Assembly (NCBI GenBank): GCA_021803085.1
Contig: JAJZMD010000260.1
Span: 1-53,124 of the forward strand
Reading direction: 5' to 3'
Length of the DNA stretch: 53,124 bases
Source of the DNA: Actinomycetes bacterium
GTDB taxonomy: Bacteria > Actinomycetota > Acidimicrobiia > Acidimicrobiales > RAAP-2
Shown piece after piece: positions 517 to 16,956 of this stretch. Both the position numbers and the translations under genes were made by a program. Every line of letters begins with the position of its first letter. The first letter of the stretch is position 1. The notes under the pieces were generated by a model. That model made no database searches, had not been told where the DNA came from, and was given only the letters and a program-made list of their open reading frames with translations.

Positions 517-575
517 CCGTAGGCATCCCCCACACCCCACGCGAACAGGCCCATAGCCCGACCAATGCGGGGGCA

Positions 576-884
576 TCATTCCTCGGAGGTGTGGCTCGCC
601 ATCTTGTAGGCGTAGACGAACCGCGTAGACTGATCGCCGCCCCCGGCTCCTCCATCAAAGCCAGCTCGGAGCAATCTTTTCTCGGCCTTACGGGCCTTTG
701 CCTCGTTGGCCGCCTTCCGTACGATCCATGTGTGGACGTCGTCCCGGCGAACGCGATGGCGGCGGAAGAGGCAGTCATCGGGGTCCGCTGCGATACCGGC
801 ATACCATTCTTTGCAACGTTCGCCGTTCTTCAGCACACGTCCCGTTATAGCTGCGACGATCTTCTTCGGCTTCTCTCGCTTCAT
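576..884 (-). CDS. Small conserved-looking hypothetical protein
   Basis: This 102-residue protein is basic at the N-terminus (MKREKPKKIVAAITGRVL) and ends in a glycine-rich stretch (GFDGGAGGGDQSTRFVYAYK). The middle (EWYAGIAADPDDCLF, then HTWIVRKAANEAKARKAE) resembles small uncharacterised proteins I recall from bacterial genomes and mobile elements, with a WY-GI-D-x(4)-LF pattern followed by a helix and a GGxGGGD motif. The start is supported by GGAGGT five bases upstream of the ATG. No enzymatic function can be assigned. The WYxGI pattern invites comparison with GIY-YIG-type folds, but the match is too weak to claim. It stands alone, with about 200 bp of apparently non-coding DNA before the IS110 transposase. 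Confidence 0.7.
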   Translation of the reverse strand: MKREKPKKIVAAITGRVLKNGERCKEWYAGIAADPDDCLFRRHRVRRDDVHTWIVRKAANEAKARKAEKRLLRAGFDGGAGGGDQSTRFVYAYKMASHTSEE

Positions 885-1085
885 CTGTCACCTCCGGCCG
901 TCTTTCAGCGACACGGCAACTCTACCAAACATATGTTCGAGAACGGGCTGACGGCGGCGGTGCTGACCGATTCGCACCTGTACCTCCACCTGCTGGGGTG
1001 AAATGCCTCCATCACTGACTGCGCGAGGTGCGCGCGAGTCGGAAGCTACGGCCAGGTGGCGATAGCTGTTGGGGGATTGTGGGGG

Positions 1086-2324
1086 CTACGCCGCAGCTGC
1101 CGTGATGGTGACAGCGAAGCCGAGCGCCTCGATCCGCTTTTGAAGTCGCTTCGCCTCGACAGCGGGATCGTGGCGCTGAAGGAAGTAGTCGGCTCCAGGG
1201 TCGTCATAGAGAGAACCCGTCGTCAAGAGATACCACGTGGTGTTGAGGATCGAGTGCGCAACAGCGACGGTAGCCTTGTTCGGTCCGCGGCGTCGCGCGA
1301 TCCGCACGTATTGAGCCGAAAAGTAGGTCCCTTTCGTGCGTGCTGCCGCCTTGGCAGCTTCGATGAGGGCCCGCTGGAGCCAGGTGGAGCCATGCCTGGT
1401 TCCGTGCGGCCGACGTTTGCCAGCGGACTCATGACTGGCCGGGGCAACACCGGCCCAGGCGCAGAGGTGGGCCGCCGTGGGGAAGCGGGTCATGTCCGCA
1501 CCCATCTCCGCCACCATGACCTCAGCCGTCGTCCTGCCTACTCCGGTGATCGAGCAGATGGTGGTGATGGTGGCCTCAAAAGGGACGAGCAGAGTGGCGA
1601 TCTCTTCAGTGAGGGTAGCGATGGAACGATCCAAGAAGTCGATGTGATCCATCACCTGACGGCAGACCACCGCGTGGTGCGGGCCGAAGTGGCCTGACAG
1701 AGCCTCTTCAAGCTGGGGGATCTTGGCTCGCATACGGCTCTTCGCCATCTCCGCGAGGATCTTGGAGTCCCGCTCTCCGCCGATCATCGCCTCGAGGATC
1801 TCCTTTGCCGACTTGCTCCAGACGCCAGAGGCGACTGACGACAACTTGATGCCGGCGTCTTGGAGCACCTTCTCAAGACGCTGGATCTCCTTGGTCCGGG
1901 CGTCGACCTGCGTCTTTCGATAGCGGGTCATCTCGCGGATCGCTCGGATCTCGGGTGGGGGGATGAAGCTGGGTCGCACCATGCCGTGTGCGGCCACATC
2001 GGCCAACCACTCGGCGTCGGTGAGGTCGGTCTTTCTGCCAGGCACGTTCTTGACGTGCTGCGCGTTGCACAGCCAGAGCTCGTCGAAGAGCCCTTCCAAC
2101 GAGTAGTACACCGGCTTCCAGTAGACCCCGGTCGCTTCCATCACGACAGTGGTCACTCCGGCGTCGGTCAACCACCGCGCGAGGGCAGAGAGCTCTTTCG
2201 ACGTGGTGCGGAACGACTGCTTGCTCGTGTGGATCCCACCTCGTGAACCGGGCACCCGGCAACACGCGACGACGGTGTCACGATGGACGTCAAGCCCCGC
2301 CACTTTGTCCCTGATCTCCTTCAT
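1086..2324 (-). CDS. IS110-family transposase
   Basis: This 412-residue transposase has the two IS110 domains. The N-terminal RuvC-like DEDD domain shows GLDVHRDTVVACC (first Asp), VVMEATGVYWKP (Glu) and KTDLTDAEWLADV (Asp pair). The C-terminal Tnp20 domain shows ITGVGRTTAEVMVAEMG, LCAWAGVAPASHESAGK and a Ser-containing basic stretch. Its length is normal for the family and the frame is intact, so the element may be active. I chose ATG 2324 rather than the upstream ATG 2339 because GAGGAGG lies six bases before it. IS110 enzymes recombine DNA guided by a bridge RNA from the element's own non-coding end, which here should lie on the high-coordinate side. The insertion lies just downstream of the defence operon. 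Confidence 0.95.
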   Translation of the reverse strand: MKEIRDKVAGLDVHRDTVVACCRVPGSRGGIHTSKQSFRTTSKELSALARWLTDAGVTTVVMEATGVYWKPVYYSLEGLFDELWLCNAQHVKNVPGRKTDLTDAEWLADVAAHGMVRPSFIPPPEIRAIREMTRYRKTQVDARTKEIQRLEKVLQDAGIKLSSVASGVWSKSAKEILEAMIGGERDSKILAEMAKSRMRAKIPQLEEALSGHFGPHHAVVCRQVMDHIDFLDRSIATLTEEIATLLVPFEATITTICSITGVGRTTAEVMVAEMGADMTRFPTAAHLCAWAGVAPASHESAGKRRPHGTRHGSTWLQRALIEAAKAAARTKGTYFSAQYVRIARRRGPNKATVAVAHSILNTTWYLLTTGSLYDDPGADYFLQRHDPAVEAKRLQKRIEALGFAVTITAAAA

Positions 2325-2339
2325 TGCGCACCTCCTCAT

Positions 2340-2520
2340 GGTTCGGAGGCCACCGGCGAGGGACCAGGTGAAGCGGATACTGGGGTTCGTGCTCGTAGCG
2401 ACAGTCGTGGGTCCCCCGAGGTCCCCGCGCCAGACTGATTTCGCGCTCGTAGCTGCAATCGGGGTTCGGCGACCACTACCGGTGGCCGCTCACCAGCATT
2501 TCATCCGTCGTGGGTGGGCG
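2340..2520 (-). ncRNA. Candidate IS110 bridge RNA region
   Basis: This is the non-coding stretch immediately upstream of the IS110 transposase, where IS110-group elements encode the bridge RNA. On the minus strand the 14-mers GCTACGAGCGCGAA and GCTACGAGCACGAA occur about 60 nt apart, each close to a CGAACCCC sequence. Duplicated loop-like segments would fit target and donor loops of a bridge RNA. I cannot fold the RNA here, so position and identity are inference from the family. Confidence 0.3.
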
Positions 2521-2614
2521 GCACGGCCATGGGGGCTGATATCAGAACCTGCTCGTTGTGGCCGTAGCGCCCTGACGCCTCTCCTGGCCATCACCCGACC
2601 TGAGCCGGGCAGGG

Positions 2615-3610
2615 TCAGGGAGGAATCGATCCCACGTACTCGGAGAGCACTCCGACCACTAGCAAGGCCAAGCGAGCGTCGCGATAGTCGATCCACGTGG
2701 CTTGCCCCGCGCCTTCCGGGTGGTGGGGTGCGTTCACAAAGTCCGTCGCTGCCTTCCACAGCGCGTCGAGAAACTGGCGCCTGCCGTCGTCTGCGGTCCA
2801 CCCGAGCCGCTCGGCCATCACATCGGCAACGCGATGTGCATCTGTCGCATCGAGGAGCCCCTTCCACATGGCGAGAAGCCCCCGGCACGCGGAGACGGAG
2901 TCTTCGTAGCGGCGGGCGTCCAGTGCGGCCTCGGCCTTGTCGAACTCGGCGGCCGCGTTCGGCCGGTCCGGAAGCGGGGGCGGAAGGGTGACCTCCACGA
3001 GCCGGAGACGGTCGTAGCCGAGACCGGGGAGCACGCTTCGTACCCAGGTCGAGGTTTCGACATCGACACGTAGCACCGGGGGCTGGTTCGCGGCCCAGAA
3101 CCACGCGATCTCCGCGTACTCCCCATACTTCGTGTCCCAGATCCTCGGTTCTGACGTTGACCCGGGCTGTTGCCTGTTGAAGTTCTGCAGTCCGATGACC
3201 GTCGGCTCGAGCCGGAGGTAGAGGTTGAAGACGTCGCTGTGGCTCGCATGTCGGCGGCTCTCGAGCTCCTCCACCTGGGACGGCGTAAGGAAGAAGCGCA
3301 GCTCGACGGTGCTGGTCCCCTGACCGTGTGGGCGCGAGGTGACACGAAAGGCGGGGTTCGTGCCGATCAGGTCCTCGCACACAGGCGGGCAGATGGCGGT
3401 GGCCGGTTGCACGTTCTGGTCCGTGCCGAGCAGGCCTCGGACGCGCCCGATCGCGAGCATCGCCTCATCCGGCTGGTTATTGAGCTGGACCTCCAAGGGA
3501 AAGACGAGCTGGGGGTTGATCGGGCCACCTTCGGCCCGGACTACTGCGCCGTCGACGGAGATCTGCCCGATGGACTGGCCGAAGAGGTCGATGTAGGTGC
3601 TATTCGCCAT
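2615..3610 (-). CDS. Unknown protein, last gene of the defence operon
   Basis: This 331-residue protein belongs to no family I recognise. Residues 1 to about 200 look beta-rich (alternating hydrophobics such as INPQLVFPLEVQLNN and STVELRFFLTPSQVEEL). The rest is helical, including a repeat-like segment (AAAEFDKAEAALDARRYEDS) and LGWTADDGRRQFLDALWKAA. There is no signal peptide or membrane segment. ATG 3610 is chosen because GAGGAGA lies eight bases upstream; it overlaps the methylase stop by 11 nt, implying co-translation. Its place as the final gene after helicase, SNF2 and methylase genes argues for a role in that system, for example as an adaptor or sensor, but this rests on context alone. 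Confidence 0.8.
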   Translation of the reverse strand: MANSTYIDLFGQSIGQISVDGAVVRAEGGPINPQLVFPLEVQLNNQPDEAMLAIGRVRGLLGTDQNVQPATAICPPVCEDLIGTNPAFRVTSRPHGQGTSTVELRFFLTPSQVEELESRRHASHSDVFNLYLRLEPTVIGLQNFNRQQPGSTSEPRIWDTKYGEYAEIAWFWAANQPPVLRVDVETSTWVRSVLPGLGYDRLRLVEVTLPPPLPDRPNAAAEFDKAEAALDARRYEDSVSACRGLLAMWKGLLDATDAHRVADVMAERLGWTADDGRRQFLDALWKAATDFVNAPHHPEGAGQATWIDYRDARLALLVVGVLSEYVGSIPP

Positions 3611-6600
3611 CGTGCTTATCTCCTCGTGGCGGGTGGGCGGCACGCGGGTCAACCGGGGGCGGATCAAGCGGGCACTCGTAGGGCTCCTGCGTTGCAGTCG
3701 CCTTCCCTATCGCGTCGTAGCGTTCGAGCACGAGGCGCTTCGTGCGGAACTCGCCGAAGGCTGCGACGTCGTGGCGGGCCACGATCGGGAAGGTGTCAAG
3801 CACGTACTCGACGTCCTCCCGCTCGATGCCGTAGAGGTGGAAGAAGCAAGCGTCGAGCTCTGCGCGCAGCACGCTACGGCGTTCCTCGTCGAAGCGGAAC
3901 GGTGGTCCGTCGAAGCCGAGATCGCCGGCGAAACCGGCGAGATCCCACGCGGTGTAGGTGAGCTCGAGGATGCGCGGGATGAGCCAGTCGGTGATGCTGC
4001 GATCCTGGTCCCACGGCGCGCGTCCGTCGTAGGCCGAGGGCGGCAACACGGGGAACTGCTTGACGATGAAGAAGTTGAGCGTTATGCCGCCGATCTTCTG
4101 GCGTGCAATGAAGTCGAGCGCAGACGAGGCCAGTGACGCGCCGAGCAACGTCAGGTGACGTGGGTCGACAGCCGCGAGGAGCAGTGGGAACTTGTTGCCG
4201 ACGGCTGAGCGAGGGATGACCGCAGGTACCACCGTCCGCTCGTTGGTCGGGCTCGTGACGTCGCAGAAGCCGAGCAGCCACGAATGGGGCCAGTCCTCGA
4301 GGCGTGCATCGACCTCCGCGCGCTTTACCCACGACAACGGGTAGGCCGGCCGAGACGGATCGCGATGCTCCTCAGCGGTGAGGTAGCGGGGCTGGCGCTG
4401 CCGGGCGGCGGCGGTAGGGCTGATCACCACGTCGGCCGCTCGATGATCGTAGAAGCTCACCATCTTCGCCTCATACAGCGGCAGGTAGGTCTCGTCTCCA
4501 CGACGAAAGACGTTCCCATCCAGCGTGAACCCTTGGGCTTCGAGCTGCTCACGGCTGTGGAAGAGGCCCGAGTCGCTGGTCATGTGGAACATCGTCGCCA
4601 GCCGAACACTCCAGGGGTTCCCCTTCTCGTCGCCCTCGCGGATGAGCACCGGCACCCGCCGGTAGATGCCGAGGGTGATCTCGGCGTCGCGCCGGGAGCG
4701 AAAGACCGGGCAGGTTCCGGTGTTGGGGTTCAAGAGCGCGATCTCCCCTGGCTCGAGGGCGAAACGTCGATCTGGGGCGTCGAGGTCGCTCGCCTCGTGG
4801 CAGAAGAAGGCGAGATCGGCCCGGGCGGCCGGTCGGGCGTTCCCGGAAAGGGTGAGCAGGCAGAACTTCTGGCTGCTATGAACGTCGGGGAAGAGGCCTC
4901 GCCGGTTCTCGAAGTCGTAGAGGCTCACGAGCTCGCCCTGGGCGACTGCCTGGAAGAATGCTTTCGTGGTGTCGTCGGTGGCGATGCCGGTCGGCAGGAT
5001 CACCCCGAGACGCCCGGCCGGTGCGAGAAGGCTTCGCATCGCCTCGGCGAACGCCGCGTAGGTGTTCACGTCGCCGCGTCCGCAGAGGGGGTAGCGGCCC
5101 GAGTCGTGGAGGAAGTGGGCCACCGCCTCGGCATGTGCGAGCGCGTCCCGGTACTCCGTCCACAGCGAGGGATCAGTCGCCTCCAGCTCCGCGATCAGGC
5201 GGCGGCGTCGGGCGCCGGCTGCCTCGGCGATGTCGGGGCGCCGGGAGGAGAAGAACTCCTTCTCGGCGAGCTTCACCTTTTCCCAGGGCGGGTTGCCGAG
5301 GACGACGTCGAATCCTCTTCGCTGCTCCGGTCCCAGGGCCGAGTCAGCCGCCGTTGCCCCAAAGACCTCGGGGAAGGCGAGGTGCCAGTGGAGCAGGTGC
5401 CAGGTACCTGCCAGCTCTTCTATGCGCCTTACGACCGTCGGGTCGAGCGAGTCGGGATCCTCGGCGAGCTGGTCGAGGAGCGCCTGGGTGAACACTGCCT
5501 CGCCTGCGACCTTGGAGCCGAGGAAGGCGAGGCACCAGGCGTCGGCCGAAAGGCGTGCTCGCCGTGCTTGGGGGCTCTCGGCGAGCTCGGCCCAGCGTCG
5601 CCGTTTCGCCGTGACCGCTTCGATGGTCGCGTCATCGGCCTCCGCCAGTCGCGCCGCACGCACGGCAAGCGTCTCGATGTCCGAGCTGAGAGCGGTCGGC
5701 ATCGAAGGCGTAGGTCCGTGCGCTGATGGCAGCCCGACGAAGCCGGGGAGCTGGCGCTTGCCGCCTCGGTATTGGTCCCTGTTGGCCTGCTTGTGGCGGC
5801 GGGCGAGGTCGGGGTCGTCTCCGGTTCGAGGCTTGAACGCTTCGTCGGGAATGCCGGCGGCGATCAGGGCGGGGGTCGCGCCGAGCAGCGCGTCGCCCTG
5901 GATGACCTGGTGGTCGAGGAACGAGAGCGGGAGGCCCGGCTCCAGGGCCTCGAGCCAGAGGGCGACCTTGGTCAGCTCGACGGCCATGTCGTTGCGGTCG
6001 ACGCCGTAGAGGCACCGTCCGATCACCTCGCGGCTGGCATGGCTCAAGGCGAGCTGATCGGGCTCTTCCCCGCCGCCCCGCCACCTCGCAAGCCGCAGCG
6101 CAATACGCCGGGCTGCTGCGACGAGGAAGTGCCCGCTGCCGCACGCTGGGTCGCAGATTCGAAGAGCGAGCAGGGCGCCTTCGGGGTCGGCTGCTCGCTC
6201 CGCCTCGTCGAGCAGCGGGTCGAGCGCGCTGTCGAGGAGCTGGGCGACAAGGCTCGGATGCGTGTAGTAGCTGCCGGTGCTCTTGCGTTCGGTGCCTGCA
6301 GCGACGACGAGCATGAAGCTCGGCCCGTCGGGGTCGAGCACGGGATGGAGATCGAGCAGTGACTCGTAGATCGCGCCCAGCTCTTCGGAGCCGAGGTGGC
6401 GGTAGTCGACCTTGAGCCGGGCGTGGTCTTCGGTGATGTAGGCGAGCCGGCGGGTGGCATCGAGGAGCGCAGCGTTGGTGAGCTCCCCGGCGTCGAGGTC
6501 GGGACAGGCCTCTGGGGACCAGAGGAACCCGTCGAGGGCGGGCAGTCCGAGCGCCGCCTCGCCCTTCTCGGAGGACAGGGCCCGGACGACCACCTGGAAC

Positions 6601-7634
6601 GCCCGCCAGAGGTCGCCGTGCGGGGTCCGCTGCGGGGTGCCGGCGAGGCGGCGCAGGCGGTCGGACGAGTAGTAGCGGCGGTAGCGGTCGCACGCGACCG
6701 GGTCGGCCGTAGGTGGGTGCAGCAAGGCGCGGTCTTCGGCGACGAAGCAGAAGATGAGCCGGTAGGCGAGGCGGAGAAGCTGCCGATAGTACTCCTGACC
6801 AGAGAGCGCTCCCGACGCGAGCCGGGACCGCAGCGAGGCGTTGGCAGGGTCCGCGAGGAAGCCGGCGCCGAGGATGCTGATGGCCTGGGTGACCTGACCC
6901 CGCAGGCGCTCGAGGGAGCGGATGCCGCTCGCCGTCGCCTCGTCGGCCCAGGCATCGAGCCAGCACCCTCCTTGCGGGCGGGCCTCGAGGCGGCTTTGGT
7001 GGCAGGTGAGCCAGGCGAGGAGAAAGTCGGCAAAGGACTGGGTAGTGAAGATCGACTCGAGGTCGAACTCGACGAAACTGGCCCGCGAGCCAGCCGAGCC
7101 GGAGCGAAGGAGGCGCAGCTTCCGGCCGTTGCTCACGATGCCCCACGTTCGGACCCCGGTGAGGTCCAGTGCCTCTTGGAGCAGGCGGCTCGGGCTCACT
7201 CGTCTCGTCTGGCCCGGGACCGGTGCGGTCTTGTCCAGGTCGGTGTCCCAGCTGACGAGATGCACGGGGACGGCGCCCCAGGCGTGGCTGATGGGATAGC
7301 TGCGTTCGCCGAAGACGAGCGCCGGTGCCGGCTGAAGCCAGCCGTAGCCGAAGGCGGCGAGGGCAGGAAGCGACCAGAGCCGTTCCGCGTTGGCCCCGAG
7401 CGAATCCGATGGCGTCTCCGAGAGGTCACAGACGCGCTGCCAGCGGGCGAGCAGGTTGTTGAAGGCGGCGCTGGTCGCCTCCTCCAGGCGCTCGCCGGGA
7501 GCGAGGTGGTACGCGCCAGGCGAGAGGCCGGGGAGGCTCGAGTCGAGGTGGCCGACGCGTGCGAGGAACGGCGCCGGCAGGAGGCCTCCTGCGCTGCTCA
7601 GGGCCGGGAACGGCGAGGTGGAGGTCGCCGGCAT
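3600..7634 (-). CDS. Eco57I/PglX-type adenine-N6 DNA methyltransferase
   Basis: This 1344-residue enzyme is a class I SAM-dependent DNA methylase of the large Eco57I/PglX/DISARM type. The SAM motif DPACGSG is at about 495-501 and the catalytic NPPW at about 781-784. Between them lie GVDRNDMAVELTKVALW and the QGDALLG acidic loop. The first 450 residues (GAVPVHLVSWD, then WGIVSNGRKLRLLRSGS) match the N-terminal region of such enzymes; I see no convincing intact PD-(D/E)xK there, so it may methylate without cutting. The C-terminal third should hold target recognition. Its ATG directly follows the SNF2-gene stop (TAGATG). In BREX and DISARM, comparable enzymes mark self DNA; that role is inferred here. 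Confidence 0.93.
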   Translation of the reverse strand: MPATSTSPFPALSSAGGLLPAPFLARVGHLDSSLPGLSPGAYHLAPGERLEEATSAAFNNLLARWQRVCDLSETPSDSLGANAERLWSLPALAAFGYGWLQPAPALVFGERSYPISHAWGAVPVHLVSWDTDLDKTAPVPGQTRRVSPSRLLQEALDLTGVRTWGIVSNGRKLRLLRSGSAGSRASFVEFDLESIFTTQSFADFLLAWLTCHQSRLEARPQGGCWLDAWADEATASGIRSLERLRGQVTQAISILGAGFLADPANASLRSRLASGALSGQEYYRQLLRLAYRLIFCFVAEDRALLHPPTADPVACDRYRRYYSSDRLRRLAGTPQRTPHGDLWRAFQVVVRALSSEKGEAALGLPALDGFLWSPEACPDLDAGELTNAALLDATRRLAYITEDHARLKVDYRHLGSEELGAIYESLLDLHPVLDPDGPSFMLVVAAGTERKSTGSYYTHPSLVAQLLDSALDPLLDEAERAADPEGALLALRICDPACGSGHFLVAAARRIALRLARWRGGGEEPDQLALSHASREVIGRCLYGVDRNDMAVELTKVALWLEALEPGLPLSFLDHQVIQGDALLGATPALIAAGIPDEAFKPRTGDDPDLARRHKQANRDQYRGGKRQLPGFVGLPSAHGPTPSMPTALSSDIETLAVRAARLAEADDATIEAVTAKRRRWAELAESPQARRARLSADAWCLAFLGSKVAGEAVFTQALLDQLAEDPDSLDPTVVRRIEELAGTWHLLHWHLAFPEVFGATAADSALGPEQRRGFDVVLGNPPWEKVKLAEKEFFSSRRPDIAEAAGARRRRLIAELEATDPSLWTEYRDALAHAEAVAHFLHDSGRYPLCGRGDVNTYAAFAEAMRSLLAPAGRLGVILPTGIATDDTTKAFFQAVAQGELVSLYDFENRRGLFPDVHSSQKFCLLTLSGNARPAARADLAFFCHEASDLDAPDRRFALEPGEIALLNPNTGTCPVFRSRRDAEITLGIYRRVPVLIREGDEKGNPWSVRLATMFHMTSDSGLFHSREQLEAQGFTLDGNVFRRGDETYLPLYEAKMVSFYDHRAADVVISPTAAARQRQPRYLTAEEHRDPSRPAYPLSWVKRAEVDARLEDWPHSWLLGFCDVTSPTNERTVVPAVIPRSAVGNKFPLLLAAVDPRHLTLLGASLASSALDFIARQKIGGITLNFFIVKQFPVLPPSAYDGRAPWDQDRSITDWLIPRILELTYTAWDLAGFAGDLGFDGPPFRFDEERRSVLRAELDACFFHLYGIEREDVEYVLDTFPIVARHDVAAFGEFRTKRLVLERYDAIGKATATQEPYECPLDPPPVDPRAAHPPRGDKHDGE

Positions 7635-10376
7635 CTACGCAGCTCCGACCGGGAGCAGGATGTAGCTGCCGAGCACGTCTGGGCGGTGTGGGCGCACGGC
7701 CAAGCGGACGCCGGCGCCGGCGGCCTGGCGCACGCGGCGGTGCGCCTCCTGGATCTCAACGGCCCGCCGGGCGGCCTCGGCTTCGAGTCTGGAGGTCAAG
7801 CCGTCTGCGTGCTCGGTGAGGCGGGAGAGGAACAACGCCGCCTGTGCGGGGTCGACGTTGGCGTCGGGGGTGGCTTCCAAAAGCCTGAGTGCCTGGCCGG
7901 GATCGAGCCAGCTCGCATCCGTCGGGGCGCCCTCGAAGCCGAGGATCCCAGTGTCCTCGGCGAGGATGTCCGGGCGGTTCGGCCAGGACAGCTCGAAGCG
8001 GAACCGCAGCAGGAGCAGCGTCGTTCGACGCGCGACCGCCTTCGTGCGCACCACGGCGGCTCGCCGGGCCGGTCCGGGCTGGAGCGGGTCGAGCGCGGCG
8101 TCGAGGGTCTTCGCCGCGAGCCCGGCAACGAAAGGATGAGTCCGGCTGAGGTACACCTCGCCAGTACGGACGGGTAGCTCGAAACGCACGGTCGCAGCGT
8201 CGCCACCGAGGCTCGCTCGAAGCTCCGCTGGCATACCCTGGGCGTGAAGGCGCAGCCTGCCCTCGGAGGCCAGGTTGACCGTCGCGCCCCAGGCCTGCGC
8301 CGCCTCGGCGAGGAAGGAGGCGAGATCGGCCGGTGAGCCGATGGCGCGACGCGCGGCGCCGAGCTCGTCCATCACCTCGTCGGGGTGGATCGAGCGCTGG
8401 GCGAAACGGCTCTGGGAGCGCCGCTCGCGCTCAGCCGCGTCCTCCCATGCGAGCTCCAGCTGGCGGGCGGCCGGGGTCGTCTCGAAGAGCTCGAGCTGGT
8501 CGGGGCGATTCGCGGATAGTGCACCGCGGACCAGCTCTTCCACCAGCTCCTCGGTGTTGCCCGGCACCGGCACGTGGATGCCGAGTCGGCTCCTGATCGC
8601 CCGCTGCTTGCGCAGCAGCACGGCAAGCACCGCCTGGTCGAGCGGGTTGGCGGTGCCGACGACCGTGACCGATCGGACGAGGGGGGCTGGCTGGCCGAAC
8701 CGGTCGACCCGGCCCACGCGCTGCTCGTGGCGGTTGGGGTTCCACGACAGGTCGTAGTGGACCACCGCGTCGAAGCGGCCTTGGAGGTTGACCCCCTCCG
8801 AGAGGCAGTCGGTGGCGACGAGCACGCGCCGCTCGGCGTCGAGCGCCTCGACGAGCTCGGCGCGCTCCTCCGGCGGGAGGAGGCCCGTCACGACCTCCAC
8901 CGCGACCCCTGGACCGAGCCTCGCCCTCGCAGCCTCGGCCACGTAGCGCGCGGTCTCGACGAACCGGCAGAAGACGATCGGCCGGAAGCCGTCGGCGACG
9001 AGGTTCCCCACGGCGTCGAGCGCCGTGGTGAGCTTGGTGTCGGCCGCAGGCGACAGGCGCGCGACTGCCTCGGCCAGAGTCTCGAGGCCGTCGGGGACAG
9101 CGGGCTCGCCCGGCTCGACAAAGAGCGCTGGGGCGACGTCGTTGGGCTCCTCGGCGACATCGAGGAGCTGGTCAGCCCCTCGAGCGTCCTCGACGCCGGT
9201 TGCTTCTGCTCGCTCAGAGGTGCGGGCGCGAAGCGTGGCGGCGAGGGCGGCCGGGCTCGAGGACAGCGAGCGCAGCAGGGCCAGCGCCGACCACCACCTG
9301 GCGCGCGCCTGGGGCGCTGCGACAGCGCCTGCGTGTGCACGGGCCCAGTCAAAGGCGTGATCGAAGACCTCCCGGTAGTCGGGCGACCACTCGTAGCTCA
9401 AGTCGGCCTCCTCCCTCCGGGGGAAGGGGGTGTCCTCGACGAACTCGGCCAGGTCCGGTCGGCGCCGCTGCACCAGGTGCCGGGCGAGCCGGGTGCGCAG
9501 CTCCGCCGATGGTCGGTCGTCTTCGAGCAGGGCAACGAGCTCTTTGTCGAGCAGGCCGACGAGATTGGCGAAGCCGGCCTCGTCGCCCGAGTGAGGCGTC
9601 GCCGTCAAGAGCAGGAGGTGACGGTCGCTCTCGGCGAGGCGGGAGATGAGCTGGTGGCGTTGGTGGCTCGTCGATCCGAGGCCGCCTACGCAGGTGTGGG
9701 CCTCGTCGACCACGACCAGGTCGGCGCCCGCCCGGATGCACTCCTCGCGGCGCTGCGCGCTCTTGGCGAAGTCGACGGAGGCGACGAGGCAGCGATAGCG
9801 CTCGAAGACGCTCTCGCCCGGCGCGCACTCGCGTTCGAGACGCGCAGAAGTGGCGGGCAGGTAGAGCGCCGCGTCAAGGTTGAACTTCTCTTCGAGCTCG
9901 CGCTGCCACTGGGCAGCGAGCGAGGCGGGGCACAGCACGAGCAGGCGAAGGGCGTCCCCGTTGTCGAGCAGCTCGCGGGCGATCAGCCCGGCCTCGATCG
10001 TCTTGCCGACCCCGACGTCGTCGGCCACAAGAAGCCGCACCCTCTCCTGTCGAAGCGCCATCAGCAGTGGCACCAGCTGATAGGGGCGGGGGTCGACGGC
10101 GACGGAGGCGAGCGAGCGGAACGGGCCGGCCGAGGCTCTGAAGCCGAGACGCAGCGCGTCGATCAAAAGACGCGCAGAGCGGTAGTCACCGAGGTCGCCC
10201 TGTCCGGGCCAGGAGAAGCTCGCCGGGCGCACCTCCTCCAGGGCGGTCACAATGCCCGTCTCCTCTTCCCTCTGGCCGCCGAGGGGCCTGAGCAGCAGCA
10301 GGTCATCGCTTGAGCCGGGCAGCACCACCCACTCACGGCCCCGCGCGGCTACGAGGCTGCCAGGAGCAAAGCTCAT
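7635..10376 (-). CDS. SNF2/RapA-type helicase, DrmD-like
   Basis: This 913-residue SF2 ATPase has Walker A DDVGVGKT at about 119-126, a DEAH box (VVVDEAHTCVG) at about 221-230, the TATPHSGDEAGFANLV motif III region, and the second RecA lobe with DCLSEGVNLQGRFD and LSWNPNRHEQRVGRVDRFGQ. This pattern is typical of RapA-like SNF2 helicases, including the DrmD family of class 1 DISARM. The last 300 residues show no domain I can name. The ATG at 10376 overlaps the stop of the upstream helicase by 4 nt. It probably remodels or translocates on DNA with the neighbouring methylase. Assignment to DrmD itself would need a profile search. Confidence 0.9.
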   Translation of the reverse strand: MSFAPGSLVAARGREWVVLPGSSDDLLLLRPLGGQREEETGIVTALEEVRPASFSWPGQGDLGDYRSARLLIDALRLGFRASAGPFRSLASVAVDPRPYQLVPLLMALRQERVRLLVADDVGVGKTIEAGLIARELLDNGDALRLLVLCPASLAAQWQRELEEKFNLDAALYLPATSARLERECAPGESVFERYRCLVASVDFAKSAQRREECIRAGADLVVVDEAHTCVGGLGSTSHQRHQLISRLAESDRHLLLLTATPHSGDEAGFANLVGLLDKELVALLEDDRPSAELRTRLARHLVQRRRPDLAEFVEDTPFPRREEADLSYEWSPDYREVFDHAFDWARAHAGAVAAPQARARWWSALALLRSLSSSPAALAATLRARTSERAEATGVEDARGADQLLDVAEEPNDVAPALFVEPGEPAVPDGLETLAEAVARLSPAADTKLTTALDAVGNLVADGFRPIVFCRFVETARYVAEAARARLGPGVAVEVVTGLLPPEERAELVEALDAERRVLVATDCLSEGVNLQGRFDAVVHYDLSWNPNRHEQRVGRVDRFGQPAPLVRSVTVVGTANPLDQAVLAVLLRKQRAIRSRLGIHVPVPGNTEELVEELVRGALSANRPDQLELFETTPAARQLELAWEDAAERERRSQSRFAQRSIHPDEVMDELGAARRAIGSPADLASFLAEAAQAWGATVNLASEGRLRLHAQGMPAELRASLGGDAATVRFELPVRTGEVYLSRTHPFVAGLAAKTLDAALDPLQPGPARRAAVVRTKAVARRTTLLLLRFRFELSWPNRPDILAEDTGILGFEGAPTDASWLDPGQALRLLEATPDANVDPAQAALFLSRLTEHADGLTSRLEAEAARRAVEIQEAHRRVRQAAGAGVRLAVRPHRPDVLGSYILLPVGAA

Positions 10377-13300
10377 GGTCGGGTGTTCCCCGGCCCGAAG
10401 ACAAAGCGGTGACGGCCCGCGACCTCGCCCCAGTCGTCGTGGTGGCCGAAGCGGACGACGGTGTAGCCCAAGTCCTCCAGGGCGCCTTGCTGGGTGGCGT
10501 CTCGTGCGGCCCGGTGAGCGCCGTCGTGGGCGGGGCCGTCGACGTACACAGCGACGTGAGCCTCCCTGTAGAGGAAGTCGGGCCGGGTGCCCGCAGCTTC
10601 GATGTAGACCTGGGCGGCGTCGGGCAGGCGGTAGCCGCGCTCGGAGAGAAAGTCCAGCCACTCTCGCTCGAGCGAGGAGCCACAGAGCCGCTCGAGGGAG
10701 GCCCTGTGCTCGTCGGGGTCGCTCGGACCCGGGGACGTGCTGACCTTGGCCCGGGCGAGGTCGACCATGAGGTCGCGGATGAGGTGGCGGTCGAGGGCGT
10801 GATGGTGAGCCTGGTTCCCATAGGCCATGAGACAGTCGTAGCAGGCCGCTTCGCAGGCCTCGCCGCCAAGGTCGCCTCGGTCGGCACCGCTGTCGGGGTC
10901 GAAGTGGCAGACCTCGAGCGCGGCTCGGGCGACTTCGGGCAGTGCGGCAGGGTCATCGACGAGCCGGCGCAGCACCCCGGCTCCCCCCTCCGCGGTCTCG
11001 TACAACAGGATCGTGCGCCGGGCGAGCCCGGCCACGAAGGCCACGCCCGCCTCCCCTGCAGCGTCGTCGGGCCCGCCGCCCACCTTGTCGGAGCAGCGAT
11101 CGTGGTGCGGCGGGCGGGGCCGATAGCGCGGCGGCAGGTTCGGCAGGTGGTCGAGGCCGAGCTCGGCGTCCTCCAGCTCGAAGCGGACCTGGAGCCCGCG
11201 TTTGAGCGCGGCGCCGAGGGAGATGGCCTCCTCCAGGCTCATCTCTCGGGCCGGCTCGACGAGCAGGCTGTTGAGGCGGTCCTCCACGAAGGGGACCACG
11301 CGCACCAGCCGCCGGCGCGCCTCTGCCCTCTCCTCCTCGTCCTCGTCCTCGGCGCGCGAGTCTGCCACCCAGCGACCGCGGGGGACCTCCAGCAAGAACC
11401 CCTCCGGAGTGTCAGGGCGGCGGCGGGCTCGACCGACGTTCAGCCGGTAGATCGTGGCCGCGGGTGCATAGGCGAGCTGCACGAGCTCACCAGAGGCCGC
11501 CGCTGCGCTCGCGCGCCGCTCCAGCCGATGGCCGCGTGCCTCGCCGAAGCGGATCGCGGTGCGGACCTCGTAGCCCTGGCGGCGGCGTTCCTCCTCGTCG
11601 GAGGTGATCCGGTAGCGACGCCGCAGCGACACGCTCGCGACGCGAAGCAGGTCACCGTAGCGCTGCGCCCCCTCGCCGCTCAGGCCCTGGCCGCAGCGCT
11701 CGCAGCAGTCCGGCCCGACCCCGCCGGGAGCTGGATGCGCGTACCCGCAGGCCGAACAGACGACTGCGGCCTGGGTGAGGGCGGGGCCCGAGGCGAGCGC
11801 CTCGGGGGAGTCGAGGGGGAGGTCGGCGCGGTCCACCTGGTAGACGGCGCCGTCGTGGTAGACGAGGTTTCCCGGCCCGAACTCCGCGATGGCCAAAAAG
11901 CGCGGCCGCGACAGGTACTCGTCGCCGGTCTTGTGTCGCGGGGCTGGTACGTAGGCCGACACCGGGAGCCGGGGGAAGTTGTAGCCAGGGAGGAAGCCTT
12001 CGGAGGCGAAGTAACGGTAGCTGTAGAAGTCGGAGAAGAGGCTGCTTGCGGCCAGGCCCCTGCGCTCGTCGTCGTTCAAGAGAAGGCCCAGCTTGGTCTC
12101 GGCCTGGGAGCGCAGGATCTTCGCCTGATCCTTGTCCTGGGGCGAGCGCGCCGCGTCGAGCACGACCTGGCCGTAAAAGCGGGCCTGGGCCGAGGCGGCG
12201 CGGTACATTTCGCGCCAGCGGTCGCAGGACGCGTCAAAGCGCGCGGCGGCTCCGGCGAGCACTTCATCGAGCCAGCTCGCCCGCCACCACTCGGCCGCTT
12301 TCAGCTCGCCGCCGATGTCGTCCAACACCGACAGGGCGCGGGCTTTCGCTCGAGGGATGACATCACTCTGCTCGAACGCGCTGTTCACTTCGTCTCGAAG
12401 CGCGAGCGGCGGCGGGTCGCCGTCAACGTCGAGGACGTCTCGGAGGCTCGCGCCGAGACGGACGCCGGTCTCTGCAAGCCAGATGGCCTGGACGTGGGCA
12501 CGCAGCAGGTCCTCGTTGGCCAAGTCCAGCTCAGCGGGGCGCACCTGGCCGGAGATCATGAGCTCAGGGCGGCGAAAGAAGTATCGATCGTGGCTCGAGG
12601 TCGTCGAGCAGTAGGTCACCACGAAGGCTGGCTGGCCTGAGCGCCCGGCCCGCCCCGAGCGCTGCACGTAGTTGGCGGGCGTGGGCGGGACGTTGCGCAT
12701 CCCCACTGCGTTCAAGCTCGCAACGTCGATGCCGAGCTCCATGGTGGGTGAGCAGCACAGAAGTGGCAGCTTTCCCACTCGAAACGCCTCCTCGCGTTCT
12801 TCTCGGACTTCGGCGGGCACCTGGGCGGTGTGCTCTGCTGCCATGAACACCGACATCTCGGACGCGACCTGCTTGTAGAGGCGGCGGAAGAACTCGTTCG
12901 TCGCCGCCTCGGCCTCGCCGACCTGGCCCACCCGGACCGGATCGGTAGGAGGGCTGTCACCGGCACCGGCGTGAAAGCGCATGGCGCCCGACGCGAGGCG
13001 GTAGCCGGCCACACCCCCGCCTCGCCGAGCGTCGACGACCTCGCTGAGGAGCCCGGCGGCTGCCATGAGCTCGAAGCAATCTGCGATCACCTGGCCCACC
13101 TCGTCGCTGGTGAGTCCCGCCTCCACCAGCGCCCTCCGGCGCACGTAGGTGCCGATCGCGCTGCGCGGCCCCAAGAAGAGCCAGCGCTGGCCCTTCGGGA
13201 TGCGGTCGCCTTTGCGCGAGGAGCGCGGGAAGACCGTCGAGTGGGTCTCCAGGCGGTCCCGCTCGGTCTCGTCGAAGCCCCACGGCGGCACGAGCTCGGC

Positions 13301-15766
13301 GTAGGAGCGGGCCTCGATCGTCTTCTGCCGGGCAGGGTCGAGATGCTCGGCACCGATGGCGAGCTCGTGGCGCAGGTGGTCGAGGATGGCCCTGCAGATC
13401 TCCCCGCGCTGGGCCGCAGGTGCGCCAGCGAGCGCCGGGTGCCGACCGTCCCAGGCGCCACCATCCGCGGCGAGGCGGTCGAGGTGCTCGTAGCCGACCT
13501 CGAGGAGGCCGAGTTGTTCCAGGTTGGGCGCGGCGACGCGCCAGCCGCGGCGCAGGTCGATGGCCAGCCGGTAGCCGACCACGTCGACCAAGGCCCGACG
13601 AGCGCGCTCGGGGACCTCGTAGAGGCGAGCTTCAGGGTTGGCGGCGTACGCCGCCGCATCGAGGTGAAGTGCGTCCACGGCCGCTGGTGCCAGCTCCTCG
13701 TAGCCGAGCCCGACAGCGCCCGCCTTCTCCAGGGCTCGGTAGGTCGCTGCTCGGAGCACCGATATCTGCACGAAGTCGTTGAAGTGCCCGGCCTGGAGGG
13801 CCGCGTCTTGGCGACTGTCGGAGAAGCTGAGAAGCTTCGGCTCGACGCCATTCGCCTCGCCGAGGTGGCGCAGGACCGCGAGGCTCAAGACGGTCGTGGA
13901 GCTGGAGCGGCCCTCGGTACCAAGCGTCGTGAGCCGGGTCAGGTCCGAGGAGCGCCCCCGCAGCGCGTAGGAGATCCCACACGACAGGCAGAGCCGGAAC
14001 GGCGCGGGTAGCCAGTGGGCGAGCAGGGAGCCACTTGTCGGCTGAAGGTCGAGCTGGCCGTCGGGATGCACCCAGACCGGCGTGGGAAGCCGCTCTCGAT
14101 GGTCTCGGCGCAAGCGGAACCCGCCCTTTGGGTCCTCTTCCAGCCAGTCCGAAGGCAGCCGTTCGAGCATGCCGTCGAGTTCGGCTGGCCAGGGGCTGGC
14201 GGCGCTCAGGTGAAGGAAGCCGAGCTGGCGTGCTTCGTCTTCGACGAGGGCGGTGTCGCGGTCCGACAGCTCCCGACCCACCAGGTAGCTCGTGCCTCGA
14301 GCCTGATCGGGGATCCGCTCGGCGATGTAGTACTCCTGGCCGCAACGTCGGCAGAACGCGAGAGGCAACGCAACCCGGCTGCGATCCCCTGGCGCGAAGC
14401 GCTGCTCGCCCCAGAGCAGTTCACGCTCCCCCTCGGCCTCTGGGGTGGCGGCGACGGGGGCTCCACGTCCGACGAACTGGTGAAGGCGAAAAGCAAACAG
14501 CGGCGCGTCGGTCTCGGGGTGGCGGGCCTGGGAGCCGGCGAGTAGGCACGCTTTGATCGCTTGCGCCGCCTGCTCCTCGCTACAGCCCACCAGCTTGGCG
14601 AGCTCGCGCGCCACGCCACCTGCGCCGTGCAGCGGGCGGGGGGTGGCCCGCGTGGCCTCAGGACCCTCTCCTTGGATGCCGAGGGTCGACTCGATCCACC
14701 GTGCCAGCGGGTTCGCCCGGAGCTCTGCGAAACCACTCGGCGTCCTCTTGCTGGACACTGTTTTGGCAAGCGAGCTGAGCAGCTCCCGATCTTCGGGCCG
14801 CCACGGATCGGTGGCCCGCTCCAAGCGCTCGCTGATTACGCTTTCGGGGGTGACCTCCGTGCCGAACAGGCGAGCCGCGACCCTCGCGACCTCGACGCGA
14901 CGCTGCTCGGCGGTCCCACCGGAGCTGAGCGTCGCCGAGGTGCCCACGCACTGCAGCCGGCGAGCGCTGCAGGCTTCGCGCAGGCGCCGGACTAGGAGCG
15001 CTACGTCCGCACCCTGACGGCCCCGGTAGGTGTGCAGCTCGTCGAGCACCAAGAACCGCAGGTCCTGCGCCGCGTCGATGATGGGTCGCTCCTCGGTGCG
15101 GGTGAGGAGCAGCTCCAGCATCACGTAGTTGGTGAGCAGCACGTCGGGAGGATGGGAGCGCAGCTCCTCGCGGGCTTCTTGGGACTCTTGGCCCGTATAC
15201 CGCCTGACGCGGACCGGGCCCTCGGAGGGCAAGAACTTCGCGACCTCTTCGAGCTGGGAGTTGACCAGCGCGTTCATCGGGTAGACGACGATCGCCTCGA
15301 TCCGGTCATCGCATCCGCGGCCCTCGCGCAAGATGGCATCGGTGATCGGGATCAGGTAGCCGAGGCTCTTGCCCGAGCCGGTGCCGGTCGTCAGCACGTA
15401 GCTGACCCCCGACGCGGCAGCCCGGACCGCCTCTGCCTGATGGTGGTACAGGTGAAGGCCTCGCCGAGCGCCGCCCGCCTGGTCGGGGACCCGGAACAGT
15501 TCACCGCATCGGTCACTGAGCAGCCGTTCGTTCACGAGCTCGTCGACCCAGCCGCCCGGCGCGAACGACGGGTTCAAGCTCACCGACGGATCAGGCCAGA
15601 GCACGCCTTCGTCGAGCTTCTTCTGGACGAACTCCGACACTCGTTCGTCCTGGATTCGCAGGGCGCCTTCGAGAAACCGCCGGTACTCGGCAATGACGCC
15701 GTCCCGCAGGGCAAAGACGTCCATTGCCGCACGGTCGGTCGGCGTTGTCAGTGCTGTCGTCGCCAT
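10373..15766 (-). CDS. Giant DUF1998 helicase with C-terminal nuclease-like domain
   Basis: This 1797-residue protein opens with a DEAD-type helicase: Walker A TTGTGSGKS at about 126-134, DExH-type LVLDELHTYRG at about 239-249, then TSATLSSGG. The second lobe has MELGIDVASLNAVG and YVQRSGRAGRSGQ. Cysteine pairs (CSACGYAHPAP, then CCERCGQ) lie near the middle-end. A DUF1998-like segment follows (GGAGVLRRLV, then CEAACYDCLMAYGNQ). The last ~110 residues read LEREWLDFLSERGY, RPDFLYREAHVAVYVDG and LEDLGYTVVRF, resembling DUF559/Vsr-type PD-(D/E)xK endonucleases. In DISARM, helicase and DUF1998 are separate proteins (DrmA, DrmB) with a PLD nuclease (DrmC); here helicase, DUF1998 and nuclease-like parts sit in one chain. 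It follows the peptidase gene by 8 bp. Confidence 0.9.
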   Translation of the reverse strand: MATTALTTPTDRAAMDVFALRDGVIAEYRRFLEGALRIQDERVSEFVQKKLDEGVLWPDPSVSLNPSFAPGGWVDELVNERLLSDRCGELFRVPDQAGGARRGLHLYHHQAEAVRAAASGVSYVLTTGTGSGKSLGYLIPITDAILREGRGCDDRIEAIVVYPMNALVNSQLEEVAKFLPSEGPVRVRRYTGQESQEAREELRSHPPDVLLTNYVMLELLLTRTEERPIIDAAQDLRFLVLDELHTYRGRQGADVALLVRRLREACSARRLQCVGTSATLSSGGTAEQRRVEVARVAARLFGTEVTPESVISERLERATDPWRPEDRELLSSLAKTVSSKRTPSGFAELRANPLARWIESTLGIQGEGPEATRATPRPLHGAGGVARELAKLVGCSEEQAAQAIKACLLAGSQARHPETDAPLFAFRLHQFVGRGAPVAATPEAEGERELLWGEQRFAPGDRSRVALPLAFCRRCGQEYYIAERIPDQARGTSYLVGRELSDRDTALVEDEARQLGFLHLSAASPWPAELDGMLERLPSDWLEEDPKGGFRLRRDHRERLPTPVWVHPDGQLDLQPTSGSLLAHWLPAPFRLCLSCGISYALRGRSSDLTRLTTLGTEGRSSSTTVLSLAVLRHLGEANGVEPKLLSFSDSRQDAALQAGHFNDFVQISVLRAATYRALEKAGAVGLGYEELAPAAVDALHLDAAAYAANPEARLYEVPERARRALVDVVGYRLAIDLRRGWRVAAPNLEQLGLLEVGYEHLDRLAADGGAWDGRHPALAGAPAAQRGEICRAILDHLRHELAIGAEHLDPARQKTIEARSYAELVPPWGFDETERDRLETHSTVFPRSSRKGDRIPKGQRWLFLGPRSAIGTYVRRRALVEAGLTSDEVGQVIADCFELMAAAGLLSEVVDARRGGGVAGYRLASGAMRFHAGAGDSPPTDPVRVGQVGEAEAATNEFFRRLYKQVASEMSVFMAAEHTAQVPAEVREEREEAFRVGKLPLLCCSPTMELGIDVASLNAVGMRNVPPTPANYVQRSGRAGRSGQPAFVVTYCSTTSSHDRYFFRRPELMISGQVRPAELDLANEDLLRAHVQAIWLAETGVRLGASLRDVLDVDGDPPPLALRDEVNSAFEQSDVIPRAKARALSVLDDIGGELKAAEWWRASWLDEVLAGAAARFDASCDRWREMYRAASAQARFYGQVVLDAARSPQDKDQAKILRSQAETKLGLLLNDDERRGLAASSLFSDFYSYRYFASEGFLPGYNFPRLPVSAYVPAPRHKTGDEYLSRPRFLAIAEFGPGNLVYHDGAVYQVDRADLPLDSPEALASGPALTQAAVVCSACGYAHPAPGGVGPDCCERCGQGLSGEGAQRYGDLLRVASVSLRRRYRITSDEEERRRQGYEVRTAIRFGEARGHRLERRASAAAASGELVQLAYAPAATIYRLNVGRARRRPDTPEGFLLEVPRGRWVADSRAEDEDEEERAEARRRLVRVVPFVEDRLNSLLVEPAREMSLEEAISLGAALKRGLQVRFELEDAELGLDHLPNLPPRYRPRPPHHDRCSDKVGGGPDDAAGEAGVAFVAGLARRTILLYETAEGGAGVLRRLVDDPAALPEVARAALEVCHFDPDSGADRGDLGGEACEAACYDCLMAYGNQAHHHALDRHLIRDLMVDLARAKVSTSPGPSDPDEHRASLERLCGSSLEREWLDFLSERGYRLPDAAQVYIEAAGTRPDFLYREAHVAVYVDGPAHDGAHRAARDATQQGALEDLGYTVVRFGHHDDWGEVAGRHRFVFGPGNTRP

Positions 15767-15774
15767 CGCTTCCC

Positions 15775-16341
15775 CTACCGGCGCCCGGGTGCCCGACGAG
15801 CGGCGCGCTTGTAGGCGCCGGTCACGTTGAGCCGGAACCGCATCATCGGCTCGCTCACCCCGTAGTGCTCCGCGGCGAGGTCGACGGGCACCCGGCGGGC
15901 CGCGATCGAAAAGGCGGCCTCGTCGGAGACGAGGATGGCGCCGGCCAGCCAGTCCGCCTCCTCCTCCATCTCAGGGTTCCACAGGCGACTCCTGTCGTGA
16001 TCCAGCGGTGGAGAGGGTTCGTGCAGCAAGAGACCGTGCGCCAGCTCATGGCCGACGTCGGAAGCCTGACGTCCCCTCGAATGCGCGTCGTTGTGGACGA
16101 CGACCCGGCGGCTGCCCCGGAAGACCGTGACCGCCGAGAACTCGCTCGCGTCGACCTGCTGGAAGTGGTGCACCGCGCCCGGCGCGTGCTCGCCAAGATC
16201 CGACAGGGCCAGCACTGGAATGTCCAAGCGGTGAGCGAGCTGCCAGGGGTCGAGCCGGGCCGTGAGGCCAAGGCCGAGCTCCATGCGGACCTCCCGAGCG
16301 ATCTCGTTCGCCTCGCTCTTGAAACCGCGTCGCAGTGCCAC
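15775..16341 (-). CDS. ImmA/IrrE-family metallopeptidase
   Basis: This 188-residue protein carries the zinc-peptidase signature HELAHGLLLH at about 98-107 and a downstream helix with EMEEEADWLAGAILV that supplies the third ligand. This is the layout of ImmA/IrrE peptidases, which cleave a partner XRE repressor on a DNA-damage or phage signal. The last 40 residues include a short HTH-like segment (AAEHYGVSEPMMRFRLNV) common in the family. The start is GTG. It lies 7 bp after the XRE gene and 8 bp before the giant helicase gene, so the pair probably controls the whole operon; the cleavage partner is inferred from adjacency. Confidence 0.9.
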   Translation of the reverse strand: MALRRGFKSEANEIAREVRMELGLGLTARLDPWQLAHRLDIPVLALSDLGEHAPGAVHHFQQVDASEFSAVTVFRGSRRVVVHNDAHSRGRQASDVGHELAHGLLLHEPSPPLDHDRSRLWNPEMEEEADWLAGAILVSDEAAFSIAARRVPVDLAAEHYGVSEPMMRFRLNVTGAYKRAARRAPGRR

Positions 16342-16348
16342 GATCCGC

Positions 16349-16741
16349 TCACTGCTTGCGCAGCCGCGCGTAGGTCGCCTTGATCAGCTCGTCGAGCGCA
16401 ACGGCCCCCTCGGGCGACAGGTTGGGGTCGCTGCGCAGGTAGGTCGAGATCATGGTGAGCGGCTCGGGCTGCGAGGGTCGAGGGATGTCCTCACCACGCA
16501 GGAACGTGGTGGTGTCGAGCCCGGCCCAGGCTGCCAGCGCCGCCAGCCCCTGGGCGTCGGGCAGCTTCCCCTGTGACATCCGGGTGAGCGTGGACGCGCT
16601 CACACCGCACTGCTTGGCCACCTGGCGCCACGTGAGCCCCTGGCCGATGCGCTGCGCGTCGAGCGCGGCGAAGAACGCCTCCCCGTCGAAGCGGGTCTTG
16701 ATCGCGGACACCTCCTGCTCGTTGCTTCTTTGCAACCACAC
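16349..16741 (-). CDS. XRE-family transcriptional regulator
   Basis: This 130-residue protein has a clear helix-turn-helix at about 36-60 (LTWRQVAKQCGVSASTLTRM) followed by SQGKLPDAQGLAALAAWAGL, typical of XRE/Cro regulators. The tail (LSPEGAVALDELIKATYARL) is helical. As first gene of the operon, with an ImmA-like peptidase directly behind it, it is the likely repressor of the defence genes. The start is uncertain: GTG 16741 gives the longest frame, but a TTGC-N6-GCAA dyad and a plus-strand promoter-like sequence overlap those first codons, so GTG 16711 is a possible alternative. Confidence 0.85.
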   Translation of the reverse strand: MWLQRSNEQEVSAIKTRFDGEAFFAALDAQRIGQGLTWRQVAKQCGVSASTLTRMSQGKLPDAQGLAALAAWAGLDTTTFLRGEDIPRPSQPEPLTMISTYLRSDPNLSPEGAVALDELIKATYARLRKQ

Positions 16742-16758: not shown

Positions 16759-16956
16759 TCGACTCTCACAACATGATATCTTACGAGCAACGACCGGTCC
16801 AATGGTCGGAGCGAAGGGACCAGGCATGTCGAACCCAGAAGCCAGCACCTCCGGGCCCTTCGGGCCGACCAGCTCGGCCCGGTGGCCGCTTCGTTGCGGG
16901 CTGGGAATGCCGGAGCGAAGTACGTGTCGGAGCAAGTACGCCGAGGAGGTGAACGG

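Follow-up and report, generated by a model that had tools for sequence, protein, structure and literature searches.

To which system do six close-packed genes in the genome of an actinomycete (Actinomycetes bacterium; Acidimicrobiales, RAAP-2) belong, and what might switch them on? The genes lie on the minus strand at 2615-16741 of contig JAJZMD010000260.1 (assembly GCA_021803085.1), whose full length of 53,124 nucleotides is referred to here as the window, and were first characterized from the sequence alone (hereafter the preliminary description) as a regulated, unnamed helicase, SNF2 and methylase operon resembling DISARM. The analysis presented here gives good support for assigning the three middle genes to ARMADA Type I; they are neither DISARM nor a nameless system. 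We further propose, with a probability of about three in four, that this core is headed by a CapH/CapP-like switch and that the operon is induced by infection or damage; its function would be phage defence.

The window makes up the entire contig C5 of a 4.25 Mb draft genome, and its positions 18-13610 are letter-identical to part of JAKAQM010000007.1 ('MAG: Actinomycetes bacterium isolate YF2.bin68'). The open reading frame (ORF) positions agree with the six tightly packed genes, gaps and overlaps first assigned to the locus. Read from the promoter end, the order is XRE (P0006), M78 peptidase (P0005), YprA/DUF1998 helicase (P0004), SNF2/RapA helicase, Eco57I/PglX-like methylase and a gene of 331 amino acids (aa; P0001), with spacings of 7, 8, -4, 0 and -11 bases. 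Eight window proteins were scanned against Pfam (E <= 0.01), NCBIfam and PADLOC 2023 (best 25 families per protein).

In Bell et al. 2025 (PMC12458937), ARMADA Type I is defined by a YprA helicase with a C-terminal Vsr nuclease, followed by BrxHII-like and then PglX-like components, with a BrxA-like insert, a beta-barrel zinc module and a MarR-like domain among its further traits. The first core gene of the window encodes an ArmC-like YprA/DUF1998 helicase of 1797 aa (P0004; 10373-15766, minus strand) that combines DEAD, Helicase_C, MZB (DUF1998) and C-terminal DUF559 domains in a single chain, as the preliminary description had proposed for helicase, DUF1998 and a nuclease-like domain. The DUF559 match (4.4e-5; 23.8 bits, cut-off 20.6) falls within a Vsr/DUF559-like PD-(D/E)xK nuclease domain at residues 1697-1797 (10376-10678, minus strand), which corresponds to the fused nuclease of Type I and is predicted to be active. 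This gene is followed, as in relatives, by that of an ArmA-like BrxHII/RapA (SNF2) helicase of 913 aa with SNF2 and Helicase_C domains (7635-10376, minus strand, ATG at 10376), and then by that of an ArmB-like PglX/Eco57I adenine methylase of 1344 aa (3600-7634, minus strand; Eco57I 1.7e-14) with DPACGSG at residue 495 and NPPW at 781.

The catalytic motifs of these proteins are conserved. P0004 carries a Walker A lysine (K133), a DELH motif (D242-E243) and CxxC pairs at 472, 593, 1337, 1355 and 1642; K133, D242 and E243 are kept in 32/32 aligned ARMADA I helicases, the window included, and the listed motif residues as a whole in 30-32 of the 32. The CxxC pairs at 472-475 and 593-596, kept in 30-31/32 rows, are candidates for the zinc module in the ARMADA description. 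Five putative nuclease residues are likewise retained: E1700 in 31, D1730 in 32, D1743 in 31, H1747 in 30 and D1756 in 32 of the 32 rows. The methylase NPP is present in 26/26 aligned rows and the SNF2 Walker lysine in 29/29, relatives without a long methylase ORF (6/31) or a long SNF2 ORF (3/31) having been left out. The experiments in the available text of PMC12458937 concern Type II, in which mutating the Walker motifs of both helicases or the methylase NPPW abolished defence, and the motif kinds that are essential there are present and conserved here.

The operon and ARMADA Type I are alike in gene content, gene order, fused C-terminal Vsr-like nuclease and catalytic motifs, and differ in the XRE-M78 pair that precedes the core and the near-orphan gene that follows it. 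Type II comprises the same three kinds of protein, but in the order BrxHII, PglX, YprA, then RelE-UvrD (ArmD), and this order differs from that of the operon; Pfam (E <= 0.01) shows no UvrD domain in the eight proteins scanned.

Relatives of P0004 were found in 17/394 other genomes of the class (E <= 1e-50) and in 22/395 other genomes of a phylum sample (E <= 1e-80), the two samples sharing genomes. Flanks of up to about 15 kb, often cut, were compared for 42 loci: the 17 from the class and 25 more (19 genome, 6 plasmid), matches in this second set being counted only above 60 bits. The order YprA, SNF2, methylase is seen in 32/42 loci, some with an inserted gene or a cut or split methylase; in three more (L030, L034, L085) the first two core genes precede the contig end, the methylase is ahead of the helicase in L039 only, and six loci (L006, L041, L042, L043, L044, L096) are uninformative. 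P0004 matches 178 plasmid records, of which six were compared with flanks, and annotated ARMADA I examples are found in Nocardioides pNOCA01, D. radiodurans MP1, two Rhodococcus plasmids, Roseomonas and Paraburkholderia (the last considered by annotation). Viral scans with P0004 and P0005 yielded no loci. In a helicase tree P0004 sits on a short branch (0.16) among the ARMADA I rows, above a basal fork left unresolved against very long-branched references. The combination received the name ARMADA Type I in 2025 and recurs in the same order at most of the loci compared, so the core counts as a known system by the refutation test set in the preliminary description.

The remaining three genes do not share this conservation: P0001, P0005 and P0006 have no match at E <= 1e-3 in the 17 class loci, nor above 60 bits in the other 25, the flanks often being cut. 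Conservation of gene order across genomes thus extends to the three core genes and not to XRE, M78 and the last gene, and the six-gene operon comes down to three conserved genes to which others were added locally.

Several ARMADA I loci show further features in their own right. A UvrD-like helicase gene lies upstream of the ARMADA I-type helicase in L029 (1985-4156), L034 (1722-3743), L037 (13035-15326, minus strand) and L043 (1759-3936); the products (two scanned, GajB-like) are similar in kind to ArmD, which is tied to Type II in PMC12458937. On D. radiodurans plasmid MP1 (L050 15001-33627) the methylase is annotated as two genes and the ARMADA I matches resume beyond an IS630 transposase gene, with McrBC further on, and on pNOCA01 (L049 4694-30991) the operon is followed by an AAA ATPase and McrC. 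G503 has a second weak helicase match (67 bits; L083 18998-19357) on the opposite strand downstream of its ARMADA I operon.

The question of control turns on the two genes at the promoter end. P0005 is a CapP-like M78 (ImmA/IrrE) metallopeptidase of 188 aa (15775-16341, minus strand) with HELAH at residue 98, matching Peptidase_M78 at 2.3e-14 and the PADLOC capP model, for which no cut-off is given, at 3e-8. Its partner P0006 is a CapH-like XRE protein, the putative repressor, listed as an ORF of 130 aa (16349-16741, minus strand); relatives favour a GTG start at 16711 over 16741 (16349-16711), although by eye the Shine-Dalgarno spacing is poor at 16711 and better at a TTG at 16735. CapH+CapP was reportedly first described by Lau et al. 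in 2022. PMC13373217 presents it as adjacent helix-turn-helix (HTH) and peptidase genes through which DNA damage turns on the immune genes next to them, and PMC10904395 presents PprI/IrrE-DdrO of Deinococcus as a metalloprotease-repressor system with single-stranded DNA as its signal. The arrangement of the pair, the immune neighbours of its relatives and its likeness to these two systems are the grounds on which P0006-P0005 is read, by analogy, as a CapH/CapP-type pair with a partial match to the family model. CapH+CapP and the pair in the window both place an HTH gene next to a peptidase gene where an immune operon begins, and some neighbours (Bub, CBASS, Pycsar) are common to CapH+CapP and the relatives of the window pair; the window differs in its 188-aa peptidase, which matches only part of capP, in its position before ARMADA and in a response to single-stranded DNA that is predicted. 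PprI/IrrE-DdrO follows the same protease-repressor logic but controls DNA-damage response genes via DdrO rather than a local defence operon.

P0005 matches 29 plasmid records (12 looked at) and 5/384 other genomes of the class. An XRE gene lies directly upstream of the M78 gene in 14/14 relatives (incomplete in L118, where the contig stops), as it does in 2/3 further ones (L124 and L125; in L126 it lies on the other side). Five cyanobacterial plasmids carry the pair in divergent orientation to an annotated multiubiquitin (Bub) operon; in G362 the pair diverges from genes for Multi_ubiq (44.8 bits, cut-off 24.5) and ThiF, and SAVED/CBASS, restriction, TIR, Pycsar or Fic genes are near other relatives. 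Those beside immune genes span three phyla (Actinomycetota, Cyanobacteriota and Pseudomonadota); L106 and L114 have the pair without a clear immune neighbour. In G322 (L117 4499-12869) a more distant pair stands at the head of two genes read in its own direction, for a type IIG-like methylase and for an HKD-SNF2 helicase.

An inverted repeat, TTGC-N6-GCAA, accompanies the pair. First spotted by reading the regions upstream of XRE in relatives, it has an exact copy in the 250 bp ahead of XRE in 8/14 loci (L118 not counted, its XRE being truncated where the contig stops; G730, G524 and G614, on short contigs, left out of the flank comparison). Over 2000 mononucleotide shuffles the number of such loci averaged 0.05 and never rose above 1, a figure that is descriptive since the motif was derived from the loci counted. 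With L124, L125 and L126 added, exact upstream copies are present in 9/17 loci, Microvirga included. The repeat is conserved together with the recognition helix of the repressor: of 11 loci with the helix ASTL[TS]R, nine have the exact upstream site and two (L108, L109) a site with one mismatch, whereas loci with another helix have an exact upstream site in 0/6 cases (L114, L116, L117, L119 and L125 without one upstream of XRE, L126 without a copy in the locus). L107 nearly duplicates L106, and L109 resembles L108, leaving five taxonomically separate groups, namely the window, G362, the cyanobacteria, Sphingomonas, and Bradyrhizobium with Microvirga. The 53 kb of the window contain a single exact match, the repeat at 16722-16735 (0.26 expected), and the 4.25 Mb genome has 17 exact copies, compared with 58 of a control pattern. 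The window copy begins at -24 if XRE starts at 16711, comparable to -25 for one copy in L113 and -27 in L110, with positions of -60 to -63 in L106, L107 and L112. We therefore predict an operator bound by XRE at 16722-16735, and the claim that the operon is regulated gains support from this conserved site, regulation itself being a prediction.

According to the proposed mechanism, the XRE repressor would bind TTGC-N6-GCAA at the operon head and keep expression low. Infection or damage would generate single-stranded DNA that activates the M78 protease, the repressor would be cut, and transcription of all six genes, from the regulators through the ARMADA core to the last gene, would follow. By analogy with the tested Type II, the two helicases may load on foreign DNA and travel along it, the methylase may mark or inspect the DNA, and the C-terminal nuclease domain of the YprA helicase may cut foreign DNA, leaving the cell alive.

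Several observations weigh against this reading. P0005 covers only positions 19-113 of 242 in the capP model, the start codon of the repressor is uncertain, and only 1/39 other genomes (G006), some upstream flanks being cut, has an M78 domain in the 3 kb ahead of the helicase gene; the G006 gene encodes a divergent 517-aa HTH-M78 fusion and lies beside a DUF4411 gene. A PF06114 search of 40 genomes, that of the window included, revealed no second ARMADA locus with a CapH/CapP-like pair, and the link between pair and ARMADA rests on one locus, as the pair was seen at no other. As to the repeat, L116 has a one-mismatch upstream site despite a different helix, exact copies lie away from XRE in L106, L108, L111 and L113, as well as in L114 and L117 (which have none upstream), the distance from site to XRE varies from -24 to -89 among loci, and at least one exact site occurs somewhere in the window in 23/100 shuffles, so that only its place beside XRE is notable. 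The site also lies 37 bases past a sigma-70-like promoter match directed into the operon (16773-16801, minus strand; 9/12, a consensus match only). Finally, the helicase tree is too long-branched to resolve ARMADA I against its references or to prove the clade.

The alternative that survives best keeps the ARMADA core as described and takes XRE-M78 for an independent mobile cassette, self-regulating or toxin-antitoxin-like, that only reads through into the core. That the pair is found at none of the other ARMADA loci examined, and elsewhere with many kinds of neighbour, some lacking a clear immune gene (L106, L114), fits this explanation, which we nevertheless consider unlikely: the pair is co-directional with the core across gaps of 7 and 8 bases, so that a separate ARMADA promoter would have to sit inside the M78 gene, and the more distant pair of G322 likewise leads a methylase-helicase operon.

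The last gene (P0001; 2615-3610, minus strand) starts 11 bases inside the methylase gene, an overlap that suggests translational coupling. It had been described as an unrecognised gene closing the operon, and it has indeed no Pfam or NCBIfam match at E <= 10. Relatives of this near-orphan were absent from viral contigs, plasmids and the PDB, the GTDB contigs hold only a record of the same contig, and 394 other genomes of the class give only two weak matches (E 2.2e-4 and 7.8e-4). Among 375 other genomes of the phylum there is a single match at E <= 1e-5, in G645, whose homologue (P0012) has 305 aa and 26% identity (6e-19 as a pair). P0012 overlaps the end of a methylase gene by 8 bases (L128 6623-10378), like P0001 with its 11; this methylase is broken into three reading-frame pieces that each match type IIG/type II methylase models, the last at the C-terminal end. 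The window helicases have no match in the 12 kb around P0012, and phage records contain no match to P0012 itself. Weaker relatives on Streptomyces plasmids (7 records, 3 looked at) adjoin DUF6420 genes and not methylases, which speaks against a strict methylase link. A single-sequence AlphaFold model of P0001 was unusable (mean predicted local distance difference test score, pLDDT, 34.3). Most likely the last gene is a methylase-linked accessory.

The C-terminal part of P0001 is HEPN-like by homology, P0012 having a weak HEPN match (23.3 bits, cut-off 22), and in L029, the top-scoring P0004 relative in the class search, the methylase is likewise followed by a gene with a HEPN domain, from another family (PF18735, 30.6 bits, cut-off 28.4). 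HEPN RNases carry the motif R-x4-6-H. These matches might indicate an active HEPN RNase toxin acting as an abortive arm for ARMADA here, but P0001 itself has no HEPN match in Pfam, the only R-x4-6-H motifs in its sequence, at residues 89 and 119, fall outside the HEPN-like part, and Type II ARMADA defends without cell killing according to PMC12458937, and we regard such a toxin as quite improbable.

DISARM Class 1 resembles the locus in its DrmD-like helicase, DrmMI-like methylase and DUF1998 module, whereas the window has a single-chain helicase and, in place of the PLD nuclease, a Vsr-like one; the absence of PLD noted in the preliminary description extends to all eight proteins by Pfam at E <= 0.01, and two PLD-helicase models match the RapA-like protein through helicase parts only. 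A variant or degenerate DISARM Class 1 with fused DrmA-DrmB and DrmC lost can be dismissed as very improbable, for although DrmD scores 271.9 bits on the RapA-like helicase and DrmMI 229.8 bits, as best PADLOC model, on the methylase, the NCBIfam DrmD model NF038317 reaches 311 bits against a cut-off of 610, the best PADLOC model for P0004 is DruE (332 bits) with DrmA matches at or below 46 bits, and on pNOCA01 about 4.4 kb separate the ARMADA I operon from an annotated drmA/drmB pair, indicating that the two coexist as distinct systems. In the helicase tree DrmA stands alone on a branch of length 9.6, the rest being unresolved. The preliminary description was thus right to separate the operon from DISARM, with no separate DrmA and DrmB and no PLD nuclease, but not in leaving it unnamed. 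The PADLOC 2023 output contains no family called ARMADA.

Three other candidates were rejected. The likeness to Hma raised in the preliminary description is not borne out, HmaA being only a lower-ranking match of the SNF2 protein (209.6 bits against 717.6 for its best model) with no other Hma model among the best 25 families. DruE partners in Druantia are DruH, DruA-D or DruM/F/G, and despite the DruE match of P0004 no partner model appears among the best 25 families per protein. Dpd, a set that comes with 7-deazaguanine genes, is suggested by the best model of the SNF2 protein, PDLC02853 'DpdE', but across the eight proteins the NCBIfam DpdE model NF041062 gives a sub-threshold 216 against 500 bits and DpdJ 86 against 800. 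PDLC02853 matches the ARMADA I helicase at 7635-10376 over nearly its full length with 717.6 bits, and PADLOC probably annotates ARMADA I helicases as Dpd.

Neighbouring genes are not counted in the operon. On the plus strand lie an SMC/RecF-like ATPase of 824 aa (P0007; 17206-19680), which starts about 470 bases from the repeat, and its small partner of 126 aa (P0008; 19677-20057). The preliminary description had drawn this divergent ATPase into the set, a grouping that is not supported: the pair recurs on two annotated Streptomyces plasmids with no ARMADA in the stretches shown, for which reason it is treated as separate, and P0007 and P0008 both match at one place in an unannotated Nocardia record. 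The pair at 17206-20057 looks like a separate module, a candidate in its own right; on the Streptomyces plasmids it precedes a large helicase or ATPase gene. Downstream of the operon is an IS110 transposase (1086-2339, minus strand; NF033542, 263.8 bits, cut-off 140).

Nothing on the control of ARMADA expression was found in the literature, in which subscription titles were sparsely covered, and the main text of PMC12458937 nowhere mentions CapP, ImmA or a peptidase. The regulatory reading is a specific, testable prediction from one ARMADA locus and a conserved site. More tentatively, one repressor-protease lineage with a fixed operator may act as a portable damage switch in three phyla that has here captured ARMADA I and a methylase-coupled HEPN-like subunit; if true, there would be an inducible six-gene ARMADA and a switch that plugs into unrelated immune operons. 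Thanks to the 14-bp site the claim is open to direct testing and further operons under the same switch may be easier to locate, and the last gene offers a lead to an unnamed methylase partner. If under CapH/CapP-type control, ARMADA would join the immune systems that are induced by DNA damage.

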